From IMG/VR virus record IMGVR_UViG_3300020436_003687, positions 1 through 45,926 of that record: a stretch of DNA of 45,926 nucleotides, one strand, 5' to 3'. Shown piece by piece: positions 5,658-27,123 of the stretch. The notes beneath the pieces are model-generated. The model was not told the origin of the DNA and searched no databases. It worked only from the letters and a program-made list of their open reading frames with translations. The stretch comes from a virus. Position numbers and translations under genes: made by a program. Each line of letters starts with the position of its first letter. Position 1 is the stretch's first letter.

Positions 5658-6352
5658 TATTTCCAATTGTCAATTACAAATTGATCTCCACAATTAAAAG
5701 GTTTTGGTTCTCCGTGAAACACAGCCACACTATTAGTTTCTTCTATTGTTGGAGGCTTTCGAAATATAAACTTGTTATTTTGTCTTAGCTTTGTATCCTT
5801 AAATCCAATCATTTCCCACTTGTAGGACCTTATCCATGCATCAGGCCAATGATTGATATCTTCGTTTGCCCTTTGTGTAATCCAATCTTGGTCCCCGTGA
5901 TGTCTACTCATTATTCTGTTGTGGTTGGCTACAAACTCTTCGTAAAGATAATTCATTTTTCCTGCTTCCCATCTCATAACACTTGAATTAGAATATTTCC
6001 ATTCTTTGACTCTACATCTATTGAAATCTCTTATAATCATAAATTTTCCTTGGTTGTAAGAAAATAAATTATCTATGTTTTTATGAACTACAACATCAAG
6101 ATCAAAATACAGTATATTTCCTTGTAATGGAAACTGTTCACCAAACATCCATAACTTACTCCACCAAGTTTTAATCCACGGATCTTTAGGTAATTGGAGC
6201 GTGTTTATGTTTGGATCAAGTCCGCGAACGTCATCTGTGATACAATGAAAAGTAAAAGGCACAGTAAGATGTCGTGAGACCATACTATTCAATACATTCA
6301 CATATTGTGAAATGTACTTAGGTCCCCATTTAACGCATACTACGTGATTCAT
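5657..6352 (-). CDS. GT8-like glycosyltransferase, 231 aa
   Basis: The N-terminal half is GT-A-like: MNHVVCVKWGPKY, then ILYFDLDVVVHKNID, with the DxD metal/nucleotide-sugar motif at residues 84-86. The C-terminal FHGEPKP matches the conserved HG.xKP segment of glycosyltransferase families that coordinate metal and substrate. The likely reaction is transfer of a sugar from a nucleotide sugar; the acceptor (DNA base, virion protein or host envelope) cannot be read from sequence. The start overlaps the end of the 372-aa gene by 23 bp. No signal peptide is present, so it should act in the cytoplasm. Confidence 0.8.
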   Translation of the reverse strand: MNHVVCVKWGPKYISQYVNVLNSMVSRHLTVPFTFHCITDDVRGLDPNINTLQLPKDPWIKTWWSKLWMFGEQFPLQGNILYFDLDVVVHKNIDNLFSYNQGKFMIIRDFNRCRVKEWKYSNSSVMRWEAGKMNYLYEEFVANHNRIMSRHHGDQDWITQRANEDINHWPDAWIRSYKWEMIGFKDTKLRQNNKFIFRKPPTIEETNSVAVFHGEPKPFNCGDQFVIDNWK

Positions 6353-7448
6353 AACCTTCCTTTAGATAGTCAATTTGTATTTGTTTCCAATCAGCACTGT
6401 CTAGAGAGTATGGATAATAACACTCGGTATGTTGTGAGCCAATTGTGTGTATACTTTTTATATTTAAATTATCTTTCATCATATCATATACCTGTAAAAA
6501 GGGTTTATCTTGAAACCCTAACTTCATATCAACCTGACCAATTTTAATATATCCTAGTGCTAGTTTAGGATCATTCCAGTCATATCCATTTTCCTCCAAC
6601 CATACTTGAAACTTGTCAATTTCAAATTTTTTAAAGTTATCTTCTTTTGTTATACTTTGCCCCCACTCAATATCAAATTCACCTGAATAAAATACCTGAT
6701 GATTTACTTCTGAACACAAAGCATCAGTCATTTTTGGAGCACCTTCGTCTCTAAAAACTTCATACAAAGTTTTTCCAACCTGTGCCCAATGCAAATATAC
6801 ACCACCAAGCTCTCTATCAAATCTATTTTGTTTGAATAATTCATAATCCATATCATGTAACTTGTACCTAGGGGCATTTAAAAAGGTTACAATCTGAGAC
6901 GGACGCATCCACTCTGGTTCGCATGCTTTCTTTCTATCAGCGTTTACCCAACTTTCAATTTCATGACATAGATTATTAAGTTGTCTTATGGAATACTTCG
7001 TGTTATGATCAGCTTGTTTGTAATATGGTGACAGTTGCCAAGCGGATCCTTGAAGCTCTTCAAAATATCTATGTAGTTTATTACAGGCTTCATGTTTAAG
7101 ATGTTTTCCTAGTTTGTTTTTTCCTATCGGGAGATTAGCACTATATTGAAAATCATCTCTGTTAAACTTTTCTATTTTTTCAAAAGCTGGATAAAAATCA
7201 AATGAATTTATTTGCTCGATATGTTTGTTAAGTTCATCACAAAGATAGTCTACATCTCGTTTTGAGTCTGCCCAACCTAACCAACAAAAGTTTTTTTCAA
7301 GTATTCTTTTTTCTTTTAAATTATTTTTTAAAGCTTCTAGCCATCTTTTGCCTAAAGATGTATCATAAACATTGATCCGCAACTGTTTGTTGTTTAATTG
7401 AACAACTATGTTTTCAAAAAGAAATTTATTGTCTAGCGTAGATGGCAC
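6330..7448 (-). CDS. Phage protein of unknown function, 372 aa
   Basis: This is a soluble, charged protein without signal peptide or membrane segment. It starts at a GTG (7448), inside the 3' end of the QueD-like gene (23 bp overlap), so the pair is translationally coupled. Aromatic-rich blocks stand out (NFCWLGWADSKRDVDYLCDEL at about 53-73, GGVYLHWAQVGKTLYEVFRDEGAP at about 210-235, and a C-terminal YYPYSLDSADWKQIQIDYL). No known catalytic motif is evident to me. Its place between QueD-like and glycosyltransferase genes hints at a modification pathway, but that is only context. Confidence 0.6.
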   Translation of the reverse strand: MPSTLDNKFLFENIVVQLNNKQLRINVYDTSLGKRWLEALKNNLKEKRILEKNFCWLGWADSKRDVDYLCDELNKHIEQINSFDFYPAFEKIEKFNRDDFQYSANLPIGKNKLGKHLKHEACNKLHRYFEELQGSAWQLSPYYKQADHNTKYSIRQLNNLCHEIESWVNADRKKACEPEWMRPSQIVTFLNAPRYKLHDMDYELFKQNRFDRELGGVYLHWAQVGKTLYEVFRDEGAPKMTDALCSEVNHQVFYSGEFDIEWGQSITKEDNFKKFEIDKFQVWLEENGYDWNDPKLALGYIKIGQVDMKLGFQDKPFLQVYDMMKDNLNIKSIHTIGSQHTECYYPYSLDSADWKQIQIDYLKEGYESRSMR

Positions 7449-12484: not shown

Positions 12485-12712
12485 CTAGTTCTTATTTTTC
12501 TTAAGGGTGCGTACTTTTGTACGAAGTCTGATTAGGTCATTATCTAACATTCTGATCCTATCAATAAGAGCTATTAAAGTTGTGCTTGTGTTACCAAGTT
12601 TTGGTTTAATTTCTTGAACAATGTAGTTGTATAAGAACCAAATAAAATACGCAAGGAAAAACATTGCAACCACTGGAAATCCATATTCGTTAATAATAGT
12701 TACTATTTGCAT
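12485..12712 (-). CDS. Single-TM coiled-coil membrane protein, 75 aa
   Basis: One membrane segment (about residues 9-32, YGFPVVAMFFLAYFIWFLYNYIV) is followed by a charged heptad-like tail (TTLIALIDRIRMLDNDLIRLRTKVRTLKKNKN). The next gene (12713-12991) has the same layout and similar GFP/GLPI start, so they are paralogues. The form resembles small holin-like phage proteins, but it might instead belong to the adjacent curli/cyclase module. It starts directly after the stop of its partner, so the two are co-translated. Confidence 0.6.
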   Translation of the reverse strand: MQIVTIINEYGFPVVAMFFLAYFIWFLYNYIVQEIKPKLGNTSTTLIALIDRIRMLDNDLIRLRTKVRTLKKNKN

Positions 12713-12991
12713 CTAATCCTTCCTGGCATCTTTTTTTCCGTCTGCTCTGGCAATTCTATCTGTGTCCACCGGCAGTCCTAATTGCTCAGACACTTCTTGG
12801 TCAATTTTTATTATGTCATTGTTCATAGTTTTTACCCTATTATCTAATTGCTGTATTACTGATTCTATAAATTTTATTGATCCTACTACACTCCCTAATA
12901 TGTATTTGATGATTATCATAATGAAAGCCCCCAACCCAATGGTGGCCGCAATAGGTAAGCCTAAATCTGCAACTAATGTCCAAAAGTTCAT
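12713..12991 (-). CDS. Single-TM coiled-coil membrane protein, 92 aa
   Basis: The N-terminal membrane helix (about residues 8-34, ADLGLPIAATIGLGAFIMIIIKYILG) precedes a coiled-coil-like tail (FIESVIQQLDNRVKTMNNDIIKIDQEV) and a charged end. It is paralogous in layout to the 75-aa protein that follows. A late promoter 8 bp before the ATG places it in late expression, which fits a lysis-related role. Its place just after the cyclase gene also allows a link to that membrane sensor. Both are inference. Confidence 0.6.
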   Translation of the reverse strand: MNFWTLVADLGLPIAATIGLGAFIMIIIKYILGSVVGSIKFIESVIQQLDNRVKTMNNDIIKIDQEVSEQLGLPVDTDRIARADGKKDARKD

Positions 12992-12999
12992 AATGTGTG

Positions 13000-13007
13000 T
13001 ATTTAAT
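13000..13007 (-). promoter_or_regulatory. Late promoter octamer ATTAAATA
   Basis: The minus-strand octamer ATTAAATA is followed by CACACATT and then the ATG at 12991 (8 bp gap). The same octamer-CACACAT arrangement occurs before the gene at 15220. Confidence 0.6.
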
Positions 13008-14826
13008 TCTTAATCGTGTACACCTTAACAGATTCCGTTTTTCCTTTGACCATAATGCTGTCGATGTAATCAAAATTGTAATCGTATTTTGCCGCTTTGT
13101 AGGTTTTCTCTCCAACAACTACTGTCTTGCCAAGTGTTTTAGAACTGCTTTCTAACCTTGCGGCAAGATTAACAGCGTCACCAATCACACTGTAATCAAA
13201 TCTCTGATCTGATCCCATGTTGCCCACCAGTGCTTCGCCTGTGTTTATTCCAATACCTATAGCTATCGTAGGTAATTCTTCTGCGGCCAGCTGAACATTC
13301 AGTTTTGACAATTCCCTCTGCATGTCAATAGCAGCCTGAACTGCGTGTTGCTCATGGTCTGGGTCTTCTATAGGTGCGTTCCAGAAGGCCATTATACAGT
13401 CGCCCATGAACTTGTCTATAGTTCCACCGTTTTCTATAATGACATCTGTCATTCGTGTCAAAAATCTGTTAATTAATTTTGTGAGGCCTTCAGGATTTCC
13501 TTTGTACTTCTCGCTGATGGGTGTGAAACCTCTGATATCACAGAATAGGAAAGTCATATTTCTGGTCTCACCACCAAGTTTTAGGAGTGACGGATCCTTC
13601 TGTAGTTTCTTGACCATGCCAGGATCTAGGTAGTGTTCAAACTGTTTCTTGATCTGTTGTTTGAGACCAAACTCTTTCACGAATCTGTTGAACACAGCGT
13701 GGAATCCTGTTATGGTTGTGACCAATATGATCCAACTGGCGTCCCAGAGTTGTAAGTGTTTGACGAAATAAAAGTATGCGCCATAGGCTGTTCCTGACCA
13801 TACAGTTAGTAATACAGCGCCAACCAACCAATAGGGTGCAAAACCTGCCAATAAAATTATTATTACTGCAAGCAAACCTGCTGCCACATATTCAAGAAAA
13901 GTTGCAGTGTCTAATCTCACTATGTTCTCACCGTTTATCACAGTCTGAAGACTGACTGCCATCGCTATGTGGCTATATTCCTCACCGTTGGGTGTTGCGA
14001 TAATTGTGCTGATACCTTGGGCGGTGTTTCCTATTATCACAGTCTTGCCAAAGACCGAACTGAAATCATCTGTGATGCTTAATGTTGGAAACTCCTTGTT
14101 CCACCTTAGCCATATCCTTGCGTACTGGTCTGTTTTAATTGTTTTGAACTTTGGTACCCTTAATGCTATCACACCACCTTCGCTGGCTTTGACTTGATAA
14201 CTTGGATCTCCAACTGCTACTCTTATAACTTCTAATGCAACACTAGGATAGACGTCTTCCCCAACTCTCATCAGTAAAGGTAGTCTCCTCACCACACCGT
14301 CTATCTCTGGCGTGGTGTTCACAACTCCAACACCGTCAACGTTGTCTCCCAATAAGGGTATTGGTCCTAGCATTCCTGGCCATTCGAACAACCAAGGTAA
14401 CGGATCACCTATCTTAGCAACACCACGTGGTACTGCGTTTTTATTTGTCTGCGTTGTGCCCGTCTGTGCGATCACGATTCCATTTTGTACCAAGGCCTGT
14501 GCGAGATCCATGTCTCCACCCAACCTATCCTCTTCTGAAAACAATATTGGAAGAACAATTATGCCTGCACCTGCTTCACGCAGTCGCCATATCACATCTG
14601 CGAGTACACTCCTCTTCCATGGCCACTGTCCGTTCTGTTCTATACTCTTCTCATCTATCTCAACAATTACTACATCCTCACTCACAGTTGGCTTGTCATA
14701 TTTCTGTATCAGGTCAAAACTTTTTAATCTTGCTGTCTCCTTCACAAAAGGATCTTTCAGTCCCCAAAGCATCAGTACCGCGAGTGTAATAAATGCAAGT
14801 GTCCAGTGTGTAAGGATCTTATTCAC
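13003..14826 (-). CDS. CHASE2-domain class III adenylate/guanylate cyclase, 607 aa
   Basis: The order is: N-terminal TM (about 8-24), extracytoplasmic CHASE2 sensor (about 30-300, with SEDVVIVEIDEKS, GQWPWKR and VVNTTPEIDGVVRRLPL), three TMs (about 313-380), then a cytoplasmic class III cyclase domain. Catalytic residues are intact: metal Asp430 (FCDIRGFT) and Asp476 (KFMGD), substrate Lys472, and Asn553 and Arg557 (DAVNLAARLE). Ser546 stands at the base-selecting position where many bacterial adenylate cyclases have Thr. It should make cAMP (or cGMP) from NTP in response to an envelope signal. The start is GTG, overlapping the preceding stop. Base composition looks less AT-rich than its neighbours, suggesting recent acquisition from bacteria. 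Confidence 0.9.
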   Translation of the reverse strand: MNKILTHWTLAFITLAVLMLWGLKDPFVKETARLKSFDLIQKYDKPTVSEDVVIVEIDEKSIEQNGQWPWKRSVLADVIWRLREAGAGIIVLPILFSEEDRLGGDMDLAQALVQNGIVIAQTGTTQTNKNAVPRGVAKIGDPLPWLFEWPGMLGPIPLLGDNVDGVGVVNTTPEIDGVVRRLPLLMRVGEDVYPSVALEVIRVAVGDPSYQVKASEGGVIALRVPKFKTIKTDQYARIWLRWNKEFPTLSITDDFSSVFGKTVIIGNTAQGISTIIATPNGEEYSHIAMAVSLQTVINGENIVRLDTATFLEYVAAGLLAVIIILLAGFAPYWLVGAVLLTVWSGTAYGAYFYFVKHLQLWDASWIILVTTITGFHAVFNRFVKEFGLKQQIKKQFEHYLDPGMVKKLQKDPSLLKLGGETRNMTFLFCDIRGFTPISEKYKGNPEGLTKLINRFLTRMTDVIIENGGTIDKFMGDCIMAFWNAPIEDPDHEQHAVQAAIDMQRELSKLNVQLAAEELPTIAIGIGINTGEALVGNMGSDQRFDYSVIGDAVNLAARLESSSKTLGKTVVVGEKTYKAAKYDYNFDYIDSIMVKGKTESVKVYTIKN

Positions 14827-15220
14827 CTTTTATATCCTTTTCCCATATTTCAAAACCTATATTCAAGCCTGTAACCAGTCCATATATCATCGCTATGCCG
14901 AGAATTAGAATGACCAGTATGATTGGACTCAATAGCCATAGCCACCAGTAGTACCTGAACACGTTCTGTCCTTTGGCCAGACGTTTGACCCTGTGGTCCA
15001 TAAACCAGTGAACTATCCTCTTCACAACACTCTTCAACTTGTCCACCAAGAACTTGTTAATAAACCAACGCACCGCTCTCATCACTATCAGTATTGGGGA
15101 ACTTAACACCTCGAAGAACAATAAGAAACAGTCAACGCTAAGGTCAACTATGTTGTCTGCTGTGCAGGCTTTCTTCCAACGTTCACGCAGAGTCAGTTTT
15201 TTTGGTTTCTCATCTGCCAT
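14819..15220 (-). CDS. Membrane protein beside the cyclase, 133 aa
   Basis: The protein has a basic soluble N-terminus (KPKKLTLRERWKKACTADN), a hydrophobic stretch around 32-55, an amphipathic basic region (FLVDKLKSVVKRIVHWFMDHRVKRLAKG) and a strong TM near 92-120 (WWLWLLSPIILVILILGIAMIYGLV). I do not recognise a family. It overlaps the cyclase start by 8 bp, so the two are translated together; it may assist the cyclase or act in envelope disruption. A late promoter lies 8 bp before its ATG. Like the cyclase gene, its DNA looks richer in GC than most of the window. Confidence 0.6.
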   Translation of the reverse strand: MADEKPKKLTLRERWKKACTADNIVDLSVDCFLLFFEVLSSPILIVMRAVRWFINKFLVDKLKSVVKRIVHWFMDHRVKRLAKGQNVFRYYWWLWLLSPIILVILILGIAMIYGLVTGLNIGFEIWEKDIKGE

Positions 15221-15228
15221 TATGTGTG

Positions 15229-15236
15229 TATTTAAC
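15229..15236 (-). promoter_or_regulatory. Late promoter octamer GTTAAATA
   Basis: The minus-strand octamer GTTAAATA, then CACACATA and ATG (15220). It likely drives the membrane protein and cyclase pair late in infection. Confidence 0.6.
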
Positions 15237-15241
15237 TAGAT

Positions 15242-16711
15242 CTAGTTTCCCTGTGTGGTCGACACAGCACATCCTGATTGGGTGCCACAAGTCATATCAA
15301 TATTATAATTTTGATCTGTAGAACCTTGTTGCACTAGATCAAAATCTGTCGAGTAACCATCAAGATCAATTCTGCCGGCGTGATCTCCACTGCCTGATTG
15401 AGTGATATCAACATCGTGTGCATATGATCCTGTGCCTAATTTAAGATCCAAATAGTGTTGACCACTGCCCGATTGTGATATATCCACTGTATTATTTGCG
15501 TTGTCAATATCAAGAAACAATATTTTATCGCCATCGTTCAATTGCTGTAGGCTTATCACATTTTGAGATGCATCAATGTCAACACTCATATAATGTTCAC
15601 TGTTTGCATCTCCATCGTTCCTTTGGGTAAGATTTGTTGTATTAGTACTACCATCTATGTCTAACATAATTCTATGATCACCTACATCAACAGAATAATC
15701 ACCTTGACTGATGTTAACTGTGTTTGTGCTACCAGTTATGTCTAATCCTATTCCATTCCTTCCACTGTTTCCACTTGTTGTGATATTGCCTTGATCCACA
15801 CTCAAGTTATTGTTATCACCTGTGATGGTGGCGTCTCCAGACCAATTGGATCCTGTAATAAAATTATCTTGGCCTGATTGTTGGATATTCACTGTGTTAT
15901 TGTCACCATTCACATTCATATTAACACCATTGCTTGATGTTCCTTTGGCAGTGTTAACTGATGTTGTTTGGCTAGAAGTAATAGTGACCGTCACTGCTGA
16001 TGTTGTATTCACTGTGCTTGTTATCACATCACTGATCAGTGACGTTAAAAATTCTTTGTTATCAGCAGTATAATATTGTGAATGAGAAGCATAATTTATA
16101 TCTGTGATTATAATAACTTTACCATTAGAATAACTGGATGAAAGAGCATCACCATCAAATAAAGCAACACCACAACGGCCTTGACCATTGGCGGCAAGAC
16201 ATTTCCCATTTGTTCCTAAGTTACTGATGACACCACCAAATGCAAAATTTAAATATGCCCAATCACTAGGCAATGTTGACAGTATGGATGTAGTGGATAA
16301 TTGTTCATTGGTGCCAGTATAGTCTATGTTTAAACTTGTGGAATAAGTTATAGAATTATCAGAAGTGACGTCTCTAATAAAACTTTGTATTTGATTGTTT
16401 CGACTTGTGAAATTAGTGTTCTCCCCATTTAAAAACACTGTGCCACCATTTGACAATATTGTTTTAAATCCATCTGTTGGCAAACTACTACCACTGTATC
16501 TCAAATCATAGTATTGTTCATAAGAAGAGAAATCCGTAATACTATTTGTGCTACTGGTTACGGTATGACCAGCGTCTTCTAATCTATTCTTCCATTTGCT
16601 ATGTGTATTACCATAATTTTGATGATGAATGTACACATCTTCAGCCAATACATTAGCACAATAAAAAAATAAAAAAATAAAACTAATTAACCTGCTTAAT
16701 CCTAATTTCAT
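15242..16711 (-). CDS. Secreted curlin-repeat protein with N-terminal GATase/ThuA-like domain, ~489 aa
   Basis: A signal peptide (MKLGLSRLISFIFLFFYCANVLAED) starts at ATG 16711; an in-frame GTG lies at 16723. The next ~210 residues look like a globular GATase1/ThuA-like domain (YDLRYSGSSLPTDGFKTILSNGGTVFLNGEN; GKVIIITDINYAS). From about residue 260 to the end are repeats of the curlin type: NNTVNIQQSGQDN, NTVNISQGD, NTVDISQSGSGQ, DVDITQSGSGDH and DFDLVQQGS, i.e. N-x-hydrophobic-x-hydrophobic-x-Q-x-G. Curlin repeats form cross-beta amyloid stacks outside the cell after export by CsgG. The gene overlaps the FecR gene end. It could be a fibre nucleator or adhesive tip (inference). Confidence 0.75.
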   Translation of the reverse strand: MKLGLSRLISFIFLFFYCANVLAEDVYIHHQNYGNTHSKWKNRLEDAGHTVTSSTNSITDFSSYEQYYDLRYSGSSLPTDGFKTILSNGGTVFLNGENTNFTSRNNQIQSFIRDVTSDNSITYSTSLNIDYTGTNEQLSTTSILSTLPSDWAYLNFAFGGVISNLGTNGKCLAANGQGRCGVALFDGDALSSSYSNGKVIIITDINYASHSQYYTADNKEFLTSLISDVITSTVNTTSAVTVTITSSQTTSVNTAKGTSSNGVNMNVNGDNNTVNIQQSGQDNFITGSNWSGDATITGDNNNLSVDQGNITTSGNSGRNGIGLDITGSTNTVNISQGDYSVDVGDHRIMLDIDGSTNTTNLTQRNDGDANSEHYMSVDIDASQNVISLQQLNDGDKILFLDIDNANNTVDISQSGSGQHYLDLKLGTGSYAHDVDITQSGSGDHAGRIDLDGYSTDFDLVQQGSTDQNYNIDMTCGTQSGCAVSTTQGN

Positions 16712-17786
16712 TCTGTTGTCCACCTATTACATAATCAAAAACTTCAAAGTCGTTTTGTTGCACATTTAAAATATAGCCATACTCTTGATCTAATCTCAGT
16801 TCTAAATAATTACCAGAACCACCTTCTCTTATAAAAACATATTGTGGATTTTCATCTAATAGTATTATTCCGGTTTCAGGATCTTTTCCAAATGTGACTC
16901 CAGTTGCAGATTTCTTTTTATCAAATTCACTTCTCATCTGCAACGCCAATTGTTTGTTTAATTGTGCTAGGATATCAACAAGAAAATTTTGTTCTAAGAA
17001 ATCAATATCCAATCCAGTAGCCCAAGTATCCTTTTCTTCCTCCAGATAATCAACTTCTAATTCATCAAATTTAAGAAAATCCAAATCCAATGCTGTTGCA
17101 ACTTGATTTAAGTTTTTTTCATATGCTTGTTGATCTTCAATTGCTGGAGGTTTAGATATAATCAAAAGATTGGATATCTGATCAGCATCAAGATCTAATA
17201 TGACAGGACGCATGGGATTTGACGCAACTGTATCAACCACAGTCGCTTGAAAAGCCTGATTCAATATTACATGACCAGCATCAGATTCCACAGAAATTTC
17301 TCCAACGTAACAATTACCTTGTGTGTCACACGAAGGTAGAAGTATTATTGTTGAACTACCCACTTCATCAACCGTCATTGTAAAGTCAGTACCCCTGACG
17401 GCAATTGTTGCAGTTGGTGTTGTTATTTTAATATTTTGTTTTGAATTTTTTGCAATCTGTCCCGATGCATATCTAATAGTTCCTAAAGATGCTTTAAGGG
17501 ACAAAGCACCTGTTTGTGAATTAGGATCATAAACAAATTCATCTATCACAAGTTTGGAATGTTGTGTTACGTCAACTCTTGTTTGATCTATAAATTCTAT
17601 TGCTGTTTTACCATTGCCTGTTTTCACAGTGTCATAAGAAAATACATCAAGATCAATCACAGACTCATAAGTTTCTCCTGAATCTCTTTCAATTGTGCTA
17701 TTTCCTTCCTGTAGAATAACATCTCCTATACTAGCCTTTACCAGTGTCGGTGCTAAAAAAAGCAGTAAGAAAATAAAGAAACGCAT
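16683..17786 (-). CDS. Secreted FecR-domain protein, 367 aa
   Basis: A signal peptide (MRFFIFLLLFLAPTLVKAS) is followed by a FecR domain at about 20-165: GDVILQEGNSTIERDSGET, DTVKTGNGKTAIEFIDQTRVDV, GTIRYASG and TPTATIAVRGTDFTM match the family's repeated beta strands. In bacteria, stand-alone FecR-domain proteins often sit beside CHASE2 cyclases and are thought to work as envelope sensors or ligand platforms. The C-terminus (VIGGQQNEIRIKQVN) resembles a curlin strand, so it may also contact the amyloid. ATG 17786 is preferred over GTG 17789. It starts just after the curlin gene stop and is probably coupled to it. Confidence 0.8.
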   Translation of the reverse strand: MRFFIFLLLFLAPTLVKASIGDVILQEGNSTIERDSGETYESVIDLDVFSYDTVKTGNGKTAIEFIDQTRVDVTQHSKLVIDEFVYDPNSQTGALSLKASLGTIRYASGQIAKNSKQNIKITTPTATIAVRGTDFTMTVDEVGSSTIILLPSCDTQGNCYVGEISVESDAGHVILNQAFQATVVDTVASNPMRPVILDLDADQISNLLIISKPPAIEDQQAYEKNLNQVATALDLDFLKFDELEVDYLEEEKDTWATGLDIDFLEQNFLVDILAQLNKQLALQMRSEFDKKKSATGVTFGKDPETGIILLDENPQYVFIREGGSGNYLELRLDQEYGYILNVQQNDFEVFDYVIGGQQNEIRIKQVN

Positions 17787-17790
17787 CACA

Positions 17791-18474
17791 TTAATCAGTT
17801 TGGCTGATATCTATGTCCGCTGAGTCTCCAGATGTTGTTAAGGTAATCATGTTATCATTGACACCTGATTGGATTATGTCCACATCTGCTAATCCACCTG
17901 TGTGAGTGTGTATTAAAGTGTGTCCATTTACATCTCCATTGCCATCAATGTCAATCAACCAGTTGTTTGTGTCACCATCAACTGTAATTGTTAGTATTGC
18001 ACTTGTGCCATCGATTGTGGCCGCAATCACGTTTGAATCATCCGACGCTGCTGATGTTATTGTTGCTGTTGTGTTTGCCGCATCAGAAGTTTGCCCAATG
18101 TCTAGGTCTATGTCATTTGAGTTACCAACCATTGTGACACTTGCTGTAACAGTGGCACAAGATGAATTGTTTCCTGTGCTATCACAATTGATGTCGATAT
18201 TGTTAGAACTACCTGTCACGTTGAACGTTCCAGTGTAACTTGCTCCGTTAACATCAAATGTTAATACGTTGGAACTTCCAACTTGATCAATATCGATTGT
18301 GGTACTTGCACCAGCTACTGTAGATGCAGTTGTACTATTACCTACTGTGTTATTGGCACCATCCTGTGTGATATCCAAGTCTAGACTAGCACCTGACTGT
18401 GTTACATATATGTCGTTGGCATATGCACTATAAGAAAATGCCAAGGCAAAAAATATTGTTAATAATTTATTCAT
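17791..18474 (-). CDS. Curlin-like repeat protein (CsgA/CsgB-type), 227 aa
   Basis: ATG 18474 gives a clean signal peptide (MNKLLTIFFALAFSYSAYAN). The mature protein is Asn/Thr/Asp/Ser-rich with curlin-type motifs: DIYVTQSGASLDLDITQDGANNTVG, TIDIDQVGSSNVLTF, VDIIQSGVNDNMITL and ADIDISQTD. These Q-x-G-x-x-N patterns form the amyloid core in CsgA and CsgB. Compared with CsgA (about 150 aa) it is longer, and the middle repeats are degenerate. It has its own late promoter 11 bp upstream and follows csgG, the expected export pore. It is probably the main secreted fibre subunit. Confidence 0.75.
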   Translation of the reverse strand: MNKLLTIFFALAFSYSAYANDIYVTQSGASLDLDITQDGANNTVGNSTTASTVAGASTTIDIDQVGSSNVLTFDVNGASYTGTFNVTGSSNNIDINCDSTGNNSSCATVTASVTMVGNSNDIDLDIGQTSDAANTTATITSAASDDSNVIAATIDGTSAILTITVDGDTNNWLIDIDGNGDVNGHTLIHTHTGGLADVDIIQSGVNDNMITLTTSGDSADIDISQTD

Positions 18475-18478
18475 AATA

Positions 18479-19276
18479 TTAATAGTATTTAATTTTCCAA
18501 AGTCCTTCTTTATCGCCCAGTTTAATGATTTCAAGTATGCAAAATTCTATTGCACTTCTCACTGCATAATTCACAGGCTCGTTTACTGCAACGCCTGACT
18601 CAACTTCAAATGCTTTTGTGCTCATATCCAAAAATCTAAATACGTCGGCACCTGTCTTGTGACTTGCTATTGTTTTTGTTGCTTCTGCTGTTAACAACAC
18701 TTCTCCGGTTTGCACCGCAACTAATCTCATGGATACAGTAACTTGATCAACTCTGTATTCTTCACTGATTCCAATTCCAAAATATCTTGCTCCATCACCG
18801 CCTGAAGCGACATTCGCATCATAACCAATAATACCACCCTCGATTAACAGTCCAGCAAATACAAGAGGTTTAAGCACGTTGGTTGCACCAACATCTCCAT
18901 CATAAAGTTCTCTCGTTGATCTAATCAATTGTCTTTCTTTAACTAAACTATCTAGCCCTTTTCTTTCAACTACCTTAAACCAACTGCCATCACCAACTGC
19001 TTTCAAGGCCGCAATCACCCAGGTATCCGAACCTTGTGATACTGCCATGGATAGTTGTGAAAATTTCGAACTAGGTTTTCTTTGCCCAGTGTAGTCTGGA
19101 AAATCATACACCGCGATTGTAATTATAGGCTGTTCTGTCAATGGCGGAATTGCTCTTAACAGATGCTCGGTAGGTGTGCCTTCTATGAAGGGTTTATCAC
19201 CAATTTTAACTTTGTTCTTACTTGCTGCACAGGCAGTTAGAAAAATCATTGCAAATACTAATAATAAGTTTTTCAT
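18479..19276 (-). CDS. csgG: CsgG-like curli secretion lipoprotein, 265 aa
   Basis: A lipoprotein signal with lipobox LTAC (Cys16) opens the protein. The CsgG core follows: PITIAVYDFPDYTGQRKPS, SDTWVIAALKAVGDGSWFKVVERKGLDSLVKERQLIR, then GVAVNEPVNYAVRSAIEFCILEIIKLG. Length (about 265) matches Escherichia coli CsgG. CsgG assembles a nonameric pore in the outer membrane that exports curlin subunits. The start lies just after the csgF stop. CsgG homologues are known in marine myophages, where roles in lysis or surface change have been suggested without proof. Confidence 0.9.
   Translation of the reverse strand: MKNLLLVFAMIFLTACAASKNKVKIGDKPFIEGTPTEHLLRAIPPLTEQPIITIAVYDFPDYTGQRKPSSKFSQLSMAVSQGSDTWVIAALKAVGDGSWFKVVERKGLDSLVKERQLIRSTRELYDGDVGATNVLKPLVFAGLLIEGGIIGYDANVASGGDGARYFGIGISEEYRVDQVTVSMRLVAVQTGEVLLTAEATKTIASHKTGADVFRFLDMSTKAFEVESGVAVNEPVNYAVRSAIEFCILEIIKLGDKEGLWKIKYY
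18486..18493 (-). promoter_or_regulatory. Late promoter octamer ATTAAATA
   Basis: The minus-strand octamer ATTAAATA, inside the last codons of csgG, ends 11 bp before the curlin-like ATG at 18474. It allows extra late expression of the curlin gene relative to csgF-csgG. Confidence 0.55.
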
Positions 19277-19277
19277 A

Positions 19278-19763
19278 TTAAAATTGGAAGTCTCCTAATG
19301 GTACTGACATAGTAGTAACATTGCCAGTTGGATCAGTGATAGTTAATGTTATTATTTCTGTCGAAGTGTCTTTTACCCAATAAATTGTTGATCCTTCGAC
19401 TGTTGCTGTACCACTAGTTGGACAAGTGCCTGTACAGGTAGTTCCAAACATGTTATCAACTAATTGTTTAGACAAGTTGGCATAAATTCTTGATTCAACA
19501 TTTTTTATAAATTTGTTTATAGTCGTATTGTTTTCTTCACGTTTTGCTGCCGCGGCCGCTGATTTTTTATCATCTTTGGCTTGCTTTTTCCTTGTTTCCT
19601 GTAATTGATCAATTGATAAAACATGTTGTGAATATCCTGTTCCGCTAAAACTTGGATTCTTGAATCCGTGGACTAAGGCCTCTGCAAAAGCAGATGTCAT
19701 AAAACTGTTAAGGACAAAAAAGCCTAAAATAATTGTAAAAATTAATTTTCTATACATACGCAT
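19278..19763 (-). CDS. csgF: CsgF-like curli assembly protein, 161 aa
   Basis: After a signal peptide (MRMYRKLIFTIILGFFVLNSFMTSAFAE) the mature N-terminus reads ALVHGFKNPSFSGTGYSQHVLSIDQLQ. This matches the CsgF segment (LVYTPVNPSFGG..LLSSAQ) that inserts into the CsgG channel. CsgF couples secretion to fibre nucleation at the cell surface. A Lys/Ala/Glu linker and a C-terminal beta domain (GTCTGTCPTSGTATVEGSTIYWVKD) follow. ATG 19763 fits because a late octamer ends exactly 5 bp before it; the longer frame would cross that promoter. It forms an operon with csgG, 1-2 bp apart. Confidence 0.88.
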   Translation of the reverse strand: MRMYRKLIFTIILGFFVLNSFMTSAFAEALVHGFKNPSFSGTGYSQHVLSIDQLQETRKKQAKDDKKSAAAAAKREENNTTINKFIKNVESRIYANLSKQLVDNMFGTTCTGTCPTSGTATVEGSTIYWVKDTSTEIITLTITDPTGNVTTMSVPLGDFQF

Positions 19764-19768
19764 ATGGG

Positions 19769-19776
19769 TATTTATT
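19769..19776 (-). promoter_or_regulatory. Late promoter octamer AATAAATA, 5 bp from ATG
   Basis: The minus-strand AATAAATA ends 5 bp before the csgF start codon at 19763 and is one mismatch from the T4 consensus. It is the expected start of the curli module transcript. Confidence 0.65.
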
Positions 19777-19964
19777 GAAATTACCAAATGCAGATCTGTG
19801 CGGTATTGTTACATGGACCTGCCATATTAGTACGTTAACCTCGCTCATTGTTATTTAATCTATGCGTATATTTTAAGTGTACGTACATAATGATTTAAAG
19901 CATATCTGCCCTGCGTTATTATTGTTTTACAGTCATCAAATATTGTTATTAAATACACAAAAAA
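19777..19964. other. Divergent intergenic region
   Basis: This region of about 190 bp separates csgF (minus) from the plus-strand metallopeptidase gene. Apart from the two late octamers at its ends and an 8-bp palindrome (GTACGTAC), I see no gene, tRNA or clear sigma-70 promoter here. Confidence 0.5.
19948..19955 (+). promoter_or_regulatory. Late promoter octamer ATTAAATA (plus strand)
   Basis: ATTAAATA then CACAAAAAA and the ATG at 19965 (9-bp gap). It is on the plus strand and drives the single gene at 19965-20384. Confidence 0.6.
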
Positions 19965-22258: not shown

Positions 22259-23065
22259 TTATGATTGGTTGCGTTGGCGTAGTGTGTCGTTGATCTTTAT
22301 GCTGGTTTCTAACTGCGTAAACGGTGTGTTCAGTATCTCACGGGCAAACCAAGCCAATGCATTGGTGTCTTTGGGAAAGCATGATCCTGCGTAGCCTCGC
22401 TGTCCGTCGTTGCCAGGCACTTTTAAATGTGTGTTGCCCATCCGTGGATCGTGTGCAATTATTTTTGTGAATGTCTGCCAGTCTGTGCCACGTGCCGCCT
22501 TGAGCACATCATACATCTCGTTCATGAATGTGACTTTGGTTGCCAGGAAACTGTTGATACAGTATTTCACCATTGATGCAGTGACCATATCTGTTTTGAA
22601 CACAGTGGCCTCTTTGCAAACGGAGTGTTCTTTGTACAGTTTTTCCACTAGATCTGTGTCTGCATTTACTCCACCAAACACATGCATGGGTGGATTAACA
22701 AAGTCGTTGATGTAGTTTTTTTCTGTGAGAAATTCAGGATTGTAAACTATTCGTAAATTGGTGCATTCTTCTTTGATTTTTTCCAGTTTGTATCCCGGCA
22801 CAGTTGACTTGACAATCACAAGAGCACCTTTGCTGTTGTTCAACTGTTGCATCACAATTTCCAATATCTCTGTGTTGCACTCACCTGATTCCAACTGTGG
22901 TGTTGGTACAGCCACAAATGTTGCGTCTGGTTTAAACGCTATCAGGTCCTCAATGGTGTTGGTGCTGTTGTGTTTGGGATCTACTATGAACTTCTGCACG
23001 TCCTTTGTGAATCCATGATCCACTGCCGTGCCTACAAATCCATGTCCTACAATACCCAGTTTCAT
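22259..23065 (-). CDS. Short UDP-glucose/GDP-mannose dehydrogenase family protein, 268 aa
   Basis: The N-terminal NAD-binding Rossmann domain (GIVGHGFVG at 4-12, VAVPTP at 51-56, VKSTVPG at 85-91, YNPEFLTE) is followed by the central domain with the catalytic motif GYAGSCFPKD (Cys229). Full-length enzymes have about 390-450 residues and oxidise UDP-glucose to UDP-glucuronate. This one ends after the central domain and lacks the C-terminal UDP-binding domain. The natural stop is not caused by a visible frameshift, so it is a stable short form. Sugar specificity is unknown. The DNA looks less AT-rich than its neighbours. A sigma-70 promoter lies 7 bp upstream. Confidence 0.85.
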   Translation of the reverse strand: MKLGIVGHGFVGTAVDHGFTKDVQKFIVDPKHNSTNTIEDLIAFKPDATFVAVPTPQLESGECNTEILEIVMQQLNNSKGALVIVKSTVPGYKLEKIKEECTNLRIVYNPEFLTEKNYINDFVNPPMHVFGGVNADTDLVEKLYKEHSVCKEATVFKTDMVTASMVKYCINSFLATKVTFMNEMYDVLKAARGTDWQTFTKIIAHDPRMGNTHLKVPGNDGQRGYAGSCFPKDTNALAWFAREILNTPFTQLETSIKINDTLRQRNQS

Positions 23066-23287: not shown

Positions 23288-23916
23288 TACTTCCTCAAAT
23301 ATTTCCAGCAGTAAGGAAATGCCTCGTCTGCTAATTTATCTATCTCGTTTGCAACGTCTCGTGTTTCCTTTTGTGTATCAGGTTTACATCTTAAGTTGCA
23401 TACCCTCGCAAACGCATACACAGTTCCTGACCAATACCATTCAGTCATCATCGACTGTGGTAGCACCATACGTGCCTGTTCAGGTGCAACGCCTTTTTGC
23501 AGTAGAGCATTGTACAACACCAAACAACTTTTCATTGTGGTGTCCAAGTTGTGATCTAATGTTTGATCCAATTCAACTTCACCATCTGAACCCTGTTTTG
23601 AATTCACAGGACGTCCTCTCCATGCATCAGGCTTGTACAGTTCAGGTGGAAAGTCCACATAACGTCTGGATACTTCATTCCATACAAGTCCCACTTGATG
23701 TTTCACAAGTTGCCTTGCCACAAATATGGGAGCCTTGATTCTAAACTGCATTGATGCGTGTGCAAACGGTGACCAGTGTTCGTGTTCAGCGAGATACTTT
23801 ATTAACTTTTCATCTTTAATTGTAAATGTATTACTTTCTTTTGAATAACTTACTCTTGCGGCATTGACCACAGATAAGTCTGTGCCCATCTTATCAATAA
23901 GTTCTACACTGATCAT
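23287..23916 (-). CDS. thyX: FAD-dependent thymidylate synthase ThyX, 209 aa
   Basis: The ThyX motif region reads RQLVKHQVGLVWNEVSRRY, matching RHRxxSxNExSxRY with phage-type changes (Lys for the first Arg, Gln for the second, Val for Ser). EHWSPFAHASMQFRIKAPIFVARQ and EQARMVLPQSMMTEWYWSGT are also family hallmarks. ThyX makes dTMP from dUMP with FAD and methylene-tetrahydrofolate, supplying phage DNA synthesis. Length is normal. The start overlaps the SufT-like stop by 4 bp, placing thyX in the operon that begins with sufE. Confidence 0.92.
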   Translation of the reverse strand: MISVELIDKMGTDLSVVNAARVSYSKESNTFTIKDEKLIKYLAEHEHWSPFAHASMQFRIKAPIFVARQLVKHQVGLVWNEVSRRYVDFPPELYKPDAWRGRPVNSKQGSDGEVELDQTLDHNLDTTMKSCLVLYNALLQKGVAPEQARMVLPQSMMTEWYWSGTVYAFARVCNLRCKPDTQKETRDVANEIDKLADEAFPYCWKYLRK

Positions 23917-24311
23917 AGCCCCATCAAACTTCTCATGTCTGGATCAATCATGTCTCTAGTCCATTGCGGAGTCATTGTGATTCTAACTCTACATTTCAAG
24001 CCAGGTATGCTTTCGATTTTTTGCTGTATTTCTTTGGGCATTGAATCTGCCGCAGGACAAAATGCACTTGTCAAACTCATTAGCACAAACACATATCTTT
24101 CGCTTGTTATTTTAACATCATAGATCAAACCCAGTGTGTAAAGATCCACACTGATCTCAGGATCATAAACTGTTTTAAGTTGTTCTTTTACTTTTTCAAT
24201 ATATTCTTGTTTAACATTATCGTCGTCTTTGATGTCGTCCAGAGTAGTATGCACATTTGGATCCACAGAAGGATTTCCATGTGGTATCCAACCTGGAGGT
24301 GTATTATGCAT
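23913..24311 (-). CDS. SufT/MIP18 (DUF59) Fe-S assembly protein, 132 aa
   Basis: VYDPEISVDLYTLGLIYDVKI at about residues 48-68 and MSLTSAFCPAADSMPKEIQQKIESIPGL with the conserved Cys85 match DUF59/SufT proteins, which help insert Fe-S clusters. The end PQWTRDMIDPDMRSLMGL equals the family's P.W....S...R..LG(F/L) tail. An N-terminal extension of about 30 residues (PPGWIPHGNPSVDPN) is extra. It overlaps sufE by 8 bp and thyX by 4 bp, so these form one operon. Confidence 0.85.
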   Translation of the reverse strand: MHNTPPGWIPHGNPSVDPNVHTTLDDIKDDDNVKQEYIEKVKEQLKTVYDPEISVDLYTLGLIYDVKITSERYVFVLMSLTSAFCPAADSMPKEIQQKIESIPGLKCRVRITMTPQWTRDMIDPDMRSLMGL

Positions 24312-24705
24312 TGGCTATCCTTATGATTCTGTGTATTAGTTCACCTAATCCGTTTTGCCGTTGTAGTGTAAGTAATTCTTTGATACCCAGTGCTGCAAAA
24401 TTTTCCACTGTGAGATTTGCCACTTCACTTTTGTGTGCACCATTTACAAGATCAGTAACCACTTTTGCTGTGCCTTTGGTGATGAATGCATCTCCGTCAA
24501 CACGATATTGCATTTTGTTATCTTCATTAGCACCGCCTATTATCCAAAGTTTAGAAGCACACCCATGGATTCTGTTGTCTTCGGTTTTGACAGCATCAGG
24601 CAGAGGTTCTACTTCTTTGGCTTTATCAACAAGATACTGTAATCTGTCATGTCCTTCTAACATTTTGAGATTCTCACCCATCTCAGTAATTTTATCTAAA
24701 ACCAT
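24304..24705 (-). CDS. sufE: SufE-like sulfur acceptor, 133 aa
   Basis: RIHGCASKLWIIG contains the sulfur-accepting Cys49 (family: GCxSxVW), preceded by RLQYLVDKAKEVEPLPDAVKTEDN and followed by GDAFITKGTAKVVTDLVNG, all characteristic of SufE. SufE takes persulfide sulfur from SufS-type cysteine desulfurases and passes it to the scaffold. No desulfurase is in this window, so it would rely on a host or distant partner. It is the first gene after a sigma-70-like promoter, whose -10 hexamer ends 6 bp before the ATG. Confidence 0.9.
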   Translation of the reverse strand: MVLDKITEMGENLKMLEGHDRLQYLVDKAKEVEPLPDAVKTEDNRIHGCASKLWIIGGANEDNKMQYRVDGDAFITKGTAKVVTDLVNGAHKSEVANLTVENFAALGIKELLTLQRQNGLGELIHRIIRIANA

Positions 24706-24711
24706 TATATT

Positions 24712-24740
24712 ATAATAACACGGTTACCAAGTTTTGCCAA
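24712..24740 (-). promoter_or_regulatory. Sigma-70-like promoter TTGGCA-17-TATTAT
   Basis: On the minus strand TTGGCA (24740-24735), a 17-bp spacer and TATTAT (24717-24712) precede the sufE ATG by 6 bp. One mismatch lies in each hexamer. Confidence 0.65.
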
Positions 24741-24742
24741 CC

Positions 24743-25066
24743 TTACTTGTCTGTGAAATACTTTTGTAATTTGTCAGATTCTCCTGAATGTTTTTCGTGA
24801 TCTGGTAAAGGATCTTTTTTATCTGTGATTACTTCCCACTTTTGGCTCCATTTGCCATTGAAGTCTACCCACTTCGCTCCTTCATCATCGGTATCAGGCA
24901 AAATTGCATCTTCAGGACACTCAGGTTCACATACACCACAGTCAATACATTCGTCAGGATTTATGACCAGCATGTTTTCGCCTTCGTAGAAACAATCCAC
25001 TGGGCAAACTTCAACGCAGTCTGTGTGCTTACACATGATGCACTTGTCATTGACTACGTAGGTCAC
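24743..25066 (-). CDS. fdxA: FdxA-type 7Fe ferredoxin, 107 aa
   Basis: The N-terminus [21 protein letters not shown] and then [19 protein letters not shown] match FdxA ferredoxins with one 3Fe-4S and one 4Fe-4S cluster (Cys 9, 12-13 region, 17, 21 and the 40-50 CxxCxxCxxxC set). The protein carries electrons in the cytoplasm. The C-terminal tail ([31 protein letters not shown]) is also typical. The start is GTG (25066). It may reduce phage or host oxidoreductases, or support radical SAM enzymes (inference). Confidence 0.92.
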
Positions 25067-25068
25067 TG

Positions 25069-25254
25069 CTATAATTTAATCAAAGATTCTAGTTTGTCTT
25101 CAGCGTGTGCTAGTGCTTCTAGTTTTTTCTCCGCAGTAATAACATAATCTATATGCTCTGCTACTCCTATAGGCTTTTCCAAAAATACTTTTAGATCTAC
25201 TCTAGCTACTTCAATGTCGCCTTCTAACTTTTTTATTAGTGCTTCTTTAATCAT
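25069..25254 (-). CDS. Small helical protein, 61 aa
   Basis: An amphipathic, likely two-helix protein ([26 protein letters not shown]... [21 protein letters not shown]). It begins in a TAATG overlap with the glutaredoxin stop and ends just before the ferredoxin GTG, so it is part of the grx-fdx operon. No family recognised. Confidence 0.5.
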
Positions 25255-25487
25255 TATACTCCTTTTTGTTCTAAAAATTTTTCTAATTCATAGTATCCGC
25301 CCACATAATCTTCATCAATCCAAATTTGTGGCATGGTTCTTGCGTTAGGAACCATTTCTAAAAGATCTTGTATTTTGTATCCTTCAGCGATATTTTTTTC
25401 TTCTACTTCAATACCTTTACTCTTTAATAAATTTTTTGCTTTGACACAGTATCCACATGCTGGCTTACTCCAAACTATAGCTTTCAT
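25254..25487 (-). CDS. grx: Glutaredoxin, 77 aa
   Basis: The active site CGYC (Cys11, Cys14) sits in AIVWSKPACGYCVKAKNLLKSKGI. TMPQIWIDEDYVGGYYELEKFL provides the TVP-type cis-Pro loop and glutathione-binding GG. It reduces disulfides with glutathione, and may supply ribonucleotide reductase or the peroxiredoxin at 11168-11575. Size is typical of phage glutaredoxins. It overlaps the preceding membrane-protein gene by 4 bp. Confidence 0.92.
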   Translation of the reverse strand: MKAIVWSKPACGYCVKAKNLLKSKGIEVEEKNIAEGYKIQDLLEMVPNARTMPQIWIDEDYVGGYYELEKFLEQKGV

Positions 25488-25690
25488 TCATCCAATCCTT
25501 CCATTTTTTCTTTAAATTTGACCCAACCATAAAAAACAAGATCGAACCACAAATAATTTACAACAAATCCTAACACAGTGTAGTATATACCAAATAGATA
25601 GTTTGGGATAAAAAATAATATCATAACCAAATACACAAAATATCTTCTAACATATTGTTTTGGTATAGCCCAAAATATCCAGTTTATCAT
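25484..25690 (-). CDS. Small membrane protein, 68 aa
   Basis: Two hydrophobic stretches (about 14-36 YFVYLVMILFFIPNYLFGIYYTV and 38-56 GFVVNYLWFDLVFYGWV) are flanked by basic residues and an acidic C-terminus. It overlaps both neighbours by 4 bp and belongs to the clpS-to-grx operon. Function unknown. Confidence 0.55.
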   Translation of the reverse strand: MINWIFWAIPKQYVRRYFVYLVMILFFIPNYLFGIYYTVLGFVVNYLWFDLVFYGWVKFKEKMEGLDE

Positions 25691-26067
25691 ACAGTATCAT
25701 CTCCATGGTGATAAAAATGATTTTGATGTTCAACCCTATTTAATAATTTTTTTATAGTTGGAATCTGCCTTGTGCCTATACCATGTAAAACAGTTCTAAA
25801 AAAAGGTTTTGTAAAGAAAGGCCATGACTCGTATCGTTTTACATTCTTATAAAACTTTTGTATAATATCAAAACAATCTCGAACATCATCTTTCAACTTG
25901 TCCTCCAATAGTCTATCTTGGGATAATTTAAGTAATATCGTGTTGAACCTTGCGGTGGCGTAGTCTAGTGTGCCGTAATACTTGCCAAGCACATGATCGT
26001 TTTGATTTTTGTTTTTAACAAGTTCTATGACTTTCTTGTTTTCAATCACGTATTGATCTAACGTCAT
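25687..26067 (-). CDS. Phage protein of unknown function, 126 aa
   Basis: A basic, mostly helical soluble protein (ENKKVIELVKNKNQNDHVLGKYYGTLDYATARFNTILLKLSQD...), ending His-rich (EHQNHFYHHGDDTV). No known motif. It lies directly after clpS with a 4-bp overlap and so is transcribed from the same palindrome-containing promoter. Confidence 0.5.
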   Translation of the reverse strand: MTLDQYVIENKKVIELVKNKNQNDHVLGKYYGTLDYATARFNTILLKLSQDRLLEDKLKDDVRDCFDIIQKFYKNVKRYESWPFFTKPFFRTVLHGIGTRQIPTIKKLLNRVEHQNHFYHHGDDTV

Positions 26068-26366
26068 TGCTTTTTAACTTTGATTTGTAGTGGAAAATTT
26101 TCTTGTCTGGCTACTAATGTTGTTTCAATTCCTTTTTGCTCTGCCACTTCATGCACATATGATCCTACAACACCTTGTCCGTTATCATGTATTTTTTTTG
26201 TGATATTTTCAGCTTGTTCTTGAGATTTATTAAAAATTTGTTTTAGGACCCTAACCACAAACTCCATTGTAGTAATATTATCATTTAGAAAAATAACATC
26301 ATATAGTCCAGGTTCGTCCAGTTTAACTTTTTCTTTTGTTAATGTTTGTACATCTGCCATTGTCAT
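26064..26366 (-). CDS. clpS: ClpS-like N-degron adaptor, 100 aa
   Basis: LYDVIFLNDNITTMEFVVRVLKQIFNKSQEQAENITKKIHDNGQGVVGSYVHEVAEQK matches the ClpS core. Residues that hold the N-terminal amino acid of substrates are mostly present: Asn28 and Asp29 (E. coli N34, D35), Met34 (M40) and His60 (H66); the third acidic residue (D36) is Asn30. ClpS delivers N-degron proteins to ClpA/ClpC-type unfoldases with ClpP. ATG 26366 lies only 5 bp from the -10 hexamer; the second ATG (26360) is the alternative. Phage ClpS could redirect host proteolysis. Confidence 0.9.
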   Translation of the reverse strand: MTMADVQTLTKEKVKLDEPGLYDVIFLNDNITTMEFVVRVLKQIFNKSQEQAENITKKIHDNGQGVVGSYVHEVAEQKGIETTLVARQENFPLQIKVKKQ

Positions 26367-26371
26367 TCCTT

Positions 26372-26399
26372 ATTATAACACATACGTGTATGTTGTCAA
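26372..26399 (-). promoter_or_regulatory. Perfect sigma-70 promoter of clpS with operator-like spacer
   Basis: On the minus strand TTGACA (26399-26394) and TATAAT (26377-26372) are separated by 16 bp. The spacer is largely an inverted repeat, ACATAC-GT-GTATGT at 26380-26393 (plus-strand reading): 6-bp perfect arms around a 2-bp centre. A palindrome between the -35 and -10 elements is a classic repressor position. Confidence 0.8.
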
Positions 26400-26403
26400 T
26401 TTA

Positions 26404-26427
26404 GATAGGGTGTTTTACCACCCTATC
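26404..26427 (-). terminator. Strong hairpin after hsp20 (terminator-like)
   Basis: GATAGGGTG and CACCCTATC form a perfect 9-bp stem with a 6-base loop, 13 bp past the hsp20 stop. The T-run after it is short (TAAATT), so it may be a weak terminator or a stabilising 3' end. It insulates hsp20 from the clpS promoter 5 bp further on. Confidence 0.6.
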
Positions 26428-26439
26428 CATTTGTTTGCT

Positions 26440-26889
26440 TTACTTGATCGTGATAGTTTTTGCTTTTTTGTGTTCTGGAATTATTCTTTCCATGCTCACT
26501 TTAAGCAAACCATCCTTAAGTTCTGCACCTTTAACCTCTACGTCATTGGCAATCGTAAATGTTCTTGTGAACATTCTCTTTGATATACCTCTGTGTTGCA
26601 TTCCTTCGTCGTATTTCTCAACTTCGTCTGCTGGATCTTTATTTGGTTTAGATTTAACTGTAAGTTGATTTTCTTTGTACTCAACTATAATGTCATCTTT
26701 ACCAAAACCTGCAAGTGCAAGTTCAACGTCATAGGTATGTTCACCAGTCTTGACTATGTTATATGGTGGAAAATTATTGTTTCCTCTAAAGAAACTGTCG
26801 TCCATCATGTGTTCGAAGTGATCGAACCAGTCGTCAAATCCTACTGTGTATGGTCTTAGATTATTAAAAATAGATAGATGTTTTGTCAT
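26440..26889 (-). CDS. hsp20: Small heat-shock protein Hsp20/IbpA-like, 149 aa
   Basis: The alpha-crystallin domain spans about 42-140: PPYNIVKTGEHTYDVELALAGFGKDDIIVEYKENQLTVKSKP, then YDEGMQHRGISKRMFTRTFTIANDVEVKGAELKDGLLKVSMERIIPEHKKAKTITI, with the conserved A-x-x-x-x-G-L-L-x-V motif and the IPE...K end. It acts as an ATP-independent holdase, and phage versions are thought to protect virion or host proteins. The leader of about 70 nt has a strong AGGAGG site and a 9-bp hairpin, unlike most promoter-proximal genes here. Confidence 0.93.
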   Translation of the reverse strand: MTKHLSIFNNLRPYTVGFDDWFDHFEHMMDDSFFRGNNNFPPYNIVKTGEHTYDVELALAGFGKDDIIVEYKENQLTVKSKPNKDPADEVEKYDEGMQHRGISKRMFTRTFTIANDVEVKGAELKDGLLKVSMERIIPEHKKAKTITIK

Positions 26890-26920
26890 GTGCTTTCCTC
26901 CTAAGTTAGCGAGTTAATTT

Positions 26921-26951
26921 ATTGAAGATCCTATCTATAGCAATCTTCAAT
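26921..26951 (-). promoter_or_regulatory. Hairpin in hsp20 5' leader
   Basis: ATTGAAGAT and ATCTTCAAT (9 bp, 13-base loop) pair within the hsp20 untranslated leader, about 30 bp upstream of the start codon. It does not cover the AGGAGG, so a direct thermometer is not obvious; mRNA stability or control by another factor is possible. Confidence 0.55.
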
Positions 26952-26953
26952 TT

Positions 26954-26961
26954 TATTTATC
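26954..26961 (-). promoter_or_regulatory. Possible late octamer GATAAATA before hsp20
   Basis: GATAAATA on the minus strand lies just after the sigma-70 -10 element, so hsp20 may have both early and late start sites. Confidence 0.35.
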
Positions 26962-26965
26962 TCTT

Positions 26966-26993
26966 ATTATAACACAACTGTACAAGCTGTCAA
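26966..26993 (-). promoter_or_regulatory. Perfect sigma-70 promoter of hsp20
   Basis: TTGACA (26993-26988), 16-bp spacer, TATAAT (26971-26966) on the minus strand. The sequence just before the -10 (TGTGT) is the same as in the clpS promoter. The leader to the ATG is about 70 nt. Confidence 0.85.
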
Positions 26994-27006
26994 ATGAAAT
27001 GGTAAT

Positions 27007-27084: not shown

Positions 27085-27123
27085 ACCTGGCATACTCCAT
27101 CATGTTATTTCCTTTTACATTAT

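Follow-up and report, generated by a model that had tools for sequence, protein, structure and literature searches.

Introduction

A nucleotide cyclase encoded by a virus raises the question of whether the enzyme is intact, where the gene came from, and which signal it could carry within an infected cell. We addressed this for a locus in an IMG/VR virus contig of 45,926 bases, the whole of which is referred to here as the window. A preliminary description of positions 13003-14826 had reported a virus-encoded CHASE2 adenylate/guanylate cyclase with a complete catalytic site, and had proposed that it could rewire host catabolite or stress control, or act in abortive or anti-defence signalling.

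Results and Discussion

An intact class III cyclase

Inspection of the interval 13003-14826 confirmed an open reading frame there, with the strand now corrected to minus: it runs from 14826 to 13003, with a GTG start and 607 codons, and the plus strand has no open frame, with stops throughout. Pfam places CHASE2 at residues 16-315 (E=1.8e-41, 142.9 bits against a cutoff of 26.3) and Guanylate_cyc at residues 421-606 (E=2.9e-23, 82.8 bits against a curated cutoff of 21.9), and PHROG 35576 covers nearly the entire protein (E=3.9e-222). The active site is complete, comprising the metal-binding D430 and D476, the substrate lysine K472, and the transition-state residues N553 and R557. The viral record, both Pfam domains and all five residues, correctly numbered at the outset, bear out the description of a viral CHASE2 cyclase. 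In the AlphaFold2 model (mean pLDDT 86), whose input alignment consisted of sequences from the window and related loci, helices span residues 7-23, 308-329, 332-357 and 364-396; the predicted topology is one TM segment before CHASE2 and three after it, that is, four and not the three first counted.

The solved structures nearest in sequence all belong to bacterial adenylate cyclases of class III: 6fht, a phytochrome-cyclase fusion, 2w01, and CyaB (3r5g). The base-selecting position of the window enzyme is S546, and the corresponding residue in 80 cellular CHASE2 cyclases is Ser in 65 and Thr in 15. By its domains and active site, the protein is a membrane-anchored nucleotide cyclase of class III without visible damage and most likely an adenylate cyclase, ATP being the predicted substrate and GTP a less probable one. 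All 83 phage homologues carry D430, K472, D476 and R557; 68 also retain N553, which is Ser in the other 15, so that enzymatic activity may vary within the family.

The cyclase is the last gene of a curli module

Judging from gene order, the cyclase closes a curli (type VIII secretion, T8SS) module carried by the phage, and is not a lone acquisition. On the minus strand, from 19787 to 13003, the module reads csgF-csgG-curlin-fecR-curlin-TM protein-cyclase, with an AlgH-like gene upstream of csgF. The curli assembly factor CsgF (19278-19787, 169 aa; PF10614, E=1.7e-16) and the outer-membrane curli pore CsgG (18479-19276, 265 aa; PF03783, E=1.4e-48; 66% to HTVC008M CsgG) both score over cutoff. 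They are followed by a first curlin-repeat protein, CsgA/B-like (17791-18534, 247 aa; Curlin_rpt E=0.0014), a predicted periplasmic FecR-domain protein (16683-17789, 368 aa; PF04773, E=1.2e-9; phrog_37870, 8e-151), a second curlin-repeat protein that is a candidate secreted fibre (15242-16723, 493 aa; Curlin_rpt E=0.013), and a 133-aa membrane protein (14819-15220) that overlaps the start of the cyclase, all on the minus strand. The two curlin proteins score 19.0 and 15.9 bits against a cutoff of 20.7, the first slightly and the second further under it, and their positions are conserved in the phages HTVC008M and Melnitz. These two phages have the identical gene order without the 133-aa gene, homologues of which occur in loci L002 (95%), L019, L029, L032 and L033. 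Searches of the phage records gave no match to the 133-aa protein or to the window protein encoded at 6330-7448.

The linkage is nearly constant. In 27 phage loci the cyclase is preceded by 6 kb or more of sequence, and 25 of these loci contain csgF, csgG, curlin and fecR; the exceptions are L056, in which a curlin gene lies downstream on the opposite strand (an arrangement also seen in L053, with its inverted module), and L054, where the sequence ends shortly past the cyclase. A phage T8SS module with both FecR and an adenylate cyclase has already been described (Wittmers et al. 2022, PMC9599517), with an earlier account of the phage curli module by Zaragoza-Solas et al. 2020 (PMC7029224). 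The phage CHASE2 cyclase is therefore known and the gene itself is no discovery; the preliminary description overlooked both the module and its publication. The study of Wittmers et al. (PMC9599517) also presents metatranscriptome evidence for viral curli proteins and FecR, and describes a histidine kinase ahead of csgF in podoviruses. The histidine kinase is not a core T8SS component.

The company kept by the cyclase bears on the proposal that it belongs to an anti-defence or abortive cyclic-nucleotide system. Cyclic nucleotide enzymes are known in phage-defence contexts, which lends this proposal some general plausibility. However, its constant neighbours are curli genes, the same ones being found in the complete HTVC008M and Melnitz genomes, its architecture is that of a membrane CHASE2 sensor, and no cNMP-binding effector was found in the window or in 15 other phage records. 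The claim is unsupported, and we consider it highly improbable.

Two small single-TM proteins assigned to phrog_18771, of 92 aa (12713-12991, minus strand) and 75 aa (12485-12712, minus strand), lie just downstream of the cyclase and are paralogous. Their frequent association with the module, observed here for the first time, takes several forms: the pair, always as two matches, is found next to the module at 46 of the 83 loci, being upstream on the same strand in 22, downstream on the opposite strand in 22, and downstream on the same strand in 2 (the window and L069). None was seen in the other 37 loci, many of which are short, and the pair is present in 24 of the 27 loci that have 6 kb or more ahead of the cyclase. 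Among named phage records, phrog_18771 proteins are confined to the six with a full-length cyclase. Pfam searches of the pair, including the HTVC008M and Melnitz copies that precede csgF, gave no kinase match and chance-level matches only. Our guess is that the small TM proteins of these two phages are the genes at the histidine-kinase position in the account of Wittmers et al. (PMC9599517).

Viral origin and selection

The cyclase has at least 589 matches in IMG/VR. The top named matches are the cultured phages HTVC008M and Melnitz, with annotated full-length homologues (AGE60353, 'adenylate/guanylyl cyclase', 52% identity, and QZI94833, 58% identity, respectively). A FastTree phylogeny was built from 35 phage sequences and 80 cellular ones, the latter being the best among the cellular matches listed. 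In it a branch with support of 100 sets the phage cyclases apart, with zero cellular sequences among them, and the window cyclase sits deep inside this group. A position within a host genome segment had been named at the outset as evidence that would count against a viral gene; the tree instead gives a phage-only clade.

It could be argued that this DNA is bacterial sequence mistaken for virus, or a recent transfer from a host genome, given that the GC content of the gene is above that of its neighbours and that cellular relatives exist. The phage-only clade argues otherwise, as do the cultured phages that provide the best named matches, the homologues in the complete HTVC008M and Melnitz genomes, and the IMG/VR virus record from which the window comes. 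Moreover, identity to the window cyclase is at most 41% among the cellular matches listed, against 92% for a viral contig. On the tree and the phage matches a host segment or contamination was rejected, and a bacterial source of either kind is scarcely credible. Separately, matches of 28% to Acinetobacter 'phage' cyclases were set aside as probably bacterial DNA under a phage label, with iscS, iscA, hscA and mfd as neighbours. The record L084, labelled Acinetobacter phage MD-2021a, carries iscS/iscU/iscA/hscBA and mfd with a cyclase, and is probably bacterial.

Pairwise comparisons with L002, L003, L005 and L006 gave dN/dS values of about 0.03-0.09, usable for the whole gene and not at the level of the domain, as synonymous sites of the cyclase domain are saturated in several pairs. 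These values indicate that purifying selection acts on the whole cyclase gene.

Exchange between phages

The gene was said to be less AT-rich than its neighbours, and this holds: its GC content is 0.43, and its GC3 is 0.416 (z = 2.1; mean of the window 0.280), the third highest of 55 genes. The highest GC3 is that of the 133-aa gene immediately upstream (0.522). The second highest, 0.48, belongs to a gene at 22259-23065 that by eye resembles a nucleotide-sugar dehydrogenase. The cyclases of relatives mostly do not have a raised GC3 (mean 0.26), and the shift is therefore particular to the window lineage. Window positions 13013-15609 match L002 with 86.7% DNA identity, the match ending near the cyclase stop, whereas the flanks reach only 67-74%. 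The proteins from csgF to fecR are 66-71% identical to those of HTVC008M, L010 and L018, against 49-60% to those of L003, the cyclase of which is 88% identical to that of the window. The simplest reading of these comparisons, and one not reported before, is that an exchange with another phage replaced this end of the module, made up of the cyclase and the gene just upstream of it. The proposal of recent acquisition is thus supported, but the nearest source is a phage with the same gene (L002) and not a host.

Exchange has also taken place within the gene. Over CHASE2 and the TM segments the window and L007 share 95% identity, against 53% over the cyclase domain; for L007 and L030 the corresponding figures are 60% and 92%. 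Cyclases with D546 and S553, a type without the transition-state Asn (8 representatives, including Melnitz), form a single clade in the cyclase tree and correspond to four changes on the CHASE2 tree. Catalytic-domain exchange is seen at L006, L007, L030, L013, L064 and L083. These alignments and trees indicate that cyclase domains are exchanged among phages beneath similar CHASE2 sensors, a finding that is new here inasmuch as no description of it was found in the available portions of the literature on the module.

FecR beside CHASE2 cyclases in cells

Of the 80 cellular CHASE2-cyclase loci, 21 have a FecR reading frame no more than 400 nt from the cyclase, on either strand, and another 8 have one less than 5 kb away; csgG or csgF was found in none of the 80, up to 10 kb on each side. 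These loci, the best among the matches listed, are mostly from Alphaproteobacteria going by their record titles, and the FecR and csg searches used profiles made from phage proteins, with which divergent copies could be missed. Likewise, neither FecR nor a cyclase was found within about 9 kb of alphaproteobacterial csgF in five loci. The possibility that FecR and the cyclase are an ancestral part of the bacterial curli operon was rejected for this sample on these two results.

A cluster of CHASE2 cyclase, FecR, PDE and TPR genes is known in Campylobacterota (PMC9239204), and in S. meliloti a protein signal reaches the CHASE2 cyclases through NsrA, a barrel of the outer membrane (PMC13001267). 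That FecR is common beside CHASE2 cyclases in cells, without curli genes, is a new observation of this analysis, and by gene neighbourhood the two look like an old signalling pair. As FecR accompanies cellular CHASE2 cyclases without curli genes, the phage module looks joined from two sources, a cellular FecR-CHASE2-cyclase pair and a curli operon, in an order of events that we infer. The pairing in cells suggests a route by which the curli pore could be linked to the cyclase, a question that earlier reports left aside.

Host and receptor

Our survey covered 78 genomes from what is presumed to be the SAR11 order; the related isolate HTVC008M infects a host of SAR11, whereas the host of the window may belong elsewhere. 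The genome defining this order, G210, is a single 1.2 Mb contig with 31% GC in the 18 kb read, and contains within its 16S rRNA a probe site that we take to be SAR11-441; G210 is presumed to be a SAR11-like genome, and its order SAR11. None of the 78 genomes encodes a class III cyclase, and none has a CRP helix-turn-helix over cutoff, which all 14 control genomes do. A cNMP-binding domain was matched in five, every time at borderline score and in a multidomain non-CRP protein. The four full-length frames with this match encode an 870-aa protein with acyltransferase- and SGNH-like regions by eye (for example L170:5477-8086 and L171:4242-6851), the sole candidate cNMP receptor observed in the order. 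CHASE2 itself is present in 12 of the 78 genomes; at L168:9969-11966 and L169:9034-11082 it is joined to what by eye is a SpoIIE/PP2C-like output and not a cyclase. No cNMP-binding domain was found in 16 phage records (the window and 15 others, including the complete HTVC008M and Melnitz). Four non-SAR11 bacterial genomes encode 1-25 cNMP-binding proteins each, and since two of them are marine genomes of 1.4 Mb, with 3 and 1, small genome size alone is no explanation for the missing SAR11 receptor. The receptor search in the order and in the phages covered cNMP-binding and CRP types, and the apparent lack of a CRP-type receptor in both, and of a class III cyclase in the order, is also new here.

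As to the host of the window, the best matches of its lysin are in Pelagibacter phages, which is a weak hint, and its ClpX gave 49-53% identity everywhere, with no separation of candidate hosts. The window also carries a host-like gene run at 23913-28615 (SufE-, ferredoxin-, ClpS- and ClpX-like by eye, Hsp20 by PHROG), which suggests that Fe-S and protein quality-control functions are carried by the phage.

These results weigh on the proposal that cAMP from the cyclase rewires host catabolite or stress control through a regulator of the CRP/Clr type. The intact class III active site would suit it, as would the cNMP-binding proteins of the four non-SAR11 genomes, given that the host of the window may differ from SAR11. 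On the other hand, the SAR11 survey returned neither a class III cyclase nor a CRP helix-turn-helix, with the five borderline matches being non-CRP, and the constant neighbours of the cyclase are curli genes and not metabolic or regulatory ones. Rewiring through CRP is not supported by these genomes where the host is SAR11, and we regard it overall as unlikely. It is still less likely, in our estimation, that the catalytic domain is vestigial or merely structural in the curli module, CHASE2 being the part that matters. The lack of a cNMP/CRP-type receptor in the SAR11 order and the sampled phages is consistent with this, and so are the greater variability of the cyclase domain relative to CHASE2 and the N553S replacement in 15 of 83 homologues; yet a decaying domain should tend to lose the metal aspartates, K472 and R557, which are invariant in all 83 sequences, exchanged domains included.

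A proposed relay from a surface signal to cAMP

We favour, as the probable explanation, an intact membrane-bound cyclase, most likely an adenylate cyclase, which ends the phage curli module and would convert a surface signal relayed by FecR into cAMP. It builds on the architecture, the active site, the linkage to csgF, csgG, curlin and fecR, purifying selection, the phage clade and the inter-phage exchange, all read from sequence. The module would be expressed during infection, and CsgG and CsgF would form a pore in the outer membrane. The FecR protein, going by its gene neighbourhood, may inform CHASE2 of conditions in the periplasm or at the outer membrane, such as curlin export, and the cyclase dimer would then produce cAMP inside the infected cell.

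Because one host order, SAR11, seems to be without class III cyclases and CRP-type receptors, the phage may install there a signal without a known listener. A tentative extension, for which we see a reasonable but lesser chance, is that marine phages with curli genes supply such hosts with a cyclic-nucleotide signal coupled to the cell surface, where it would be read by an unrecognised phage or host receptor, and that output domains are exchanged under a conserved CHASE2 to tune it.

Comparison with known systems

The nearest tested analogue is provided by the Sinorhizobium CHASE2 cyclases, which signal through the outer-membrane beta-barrel NsrA (PMC13001267). Alphaproteobacterial CHASE2 cyclases of this kind (S. 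meliloti CyaD1/CyaD2/CyaK type) share with the window enzyme the order TM-CHASE2-3TM-class III cyclase, often with FecR adjacent, but they are at most 41% identical to it, fall in a separate clade, and have no csgG or csgF near the 80 loci among the matches listed. The Campylobacterota cluster (PMC9239204) also unites a CHASE2 cyclase with a FecR-domain protein; unlike the window it has a phosphodiesterase and a TPR protein, and curli genes are not reported in it. The pelagiphage T8SS/curli module (PMC9599517; PMC7029224) has the same csgF-csgG-curlin-fecR-curlin-cyclase order, with the cyclase last. Relative to that account, the window adds the 133-aa membrane gene before the cyclase and a downstream, same-strand pair of small TM proteins, and its cyclase segment is GC-shifted and related to that of other phages. 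HTVC008M (AGE60353) and Melnitz (QZI94833) likewise have a full-length cyclase within the same module, that of Melnitz carrying a different cyclase domain, with D at 546 and S at 553.
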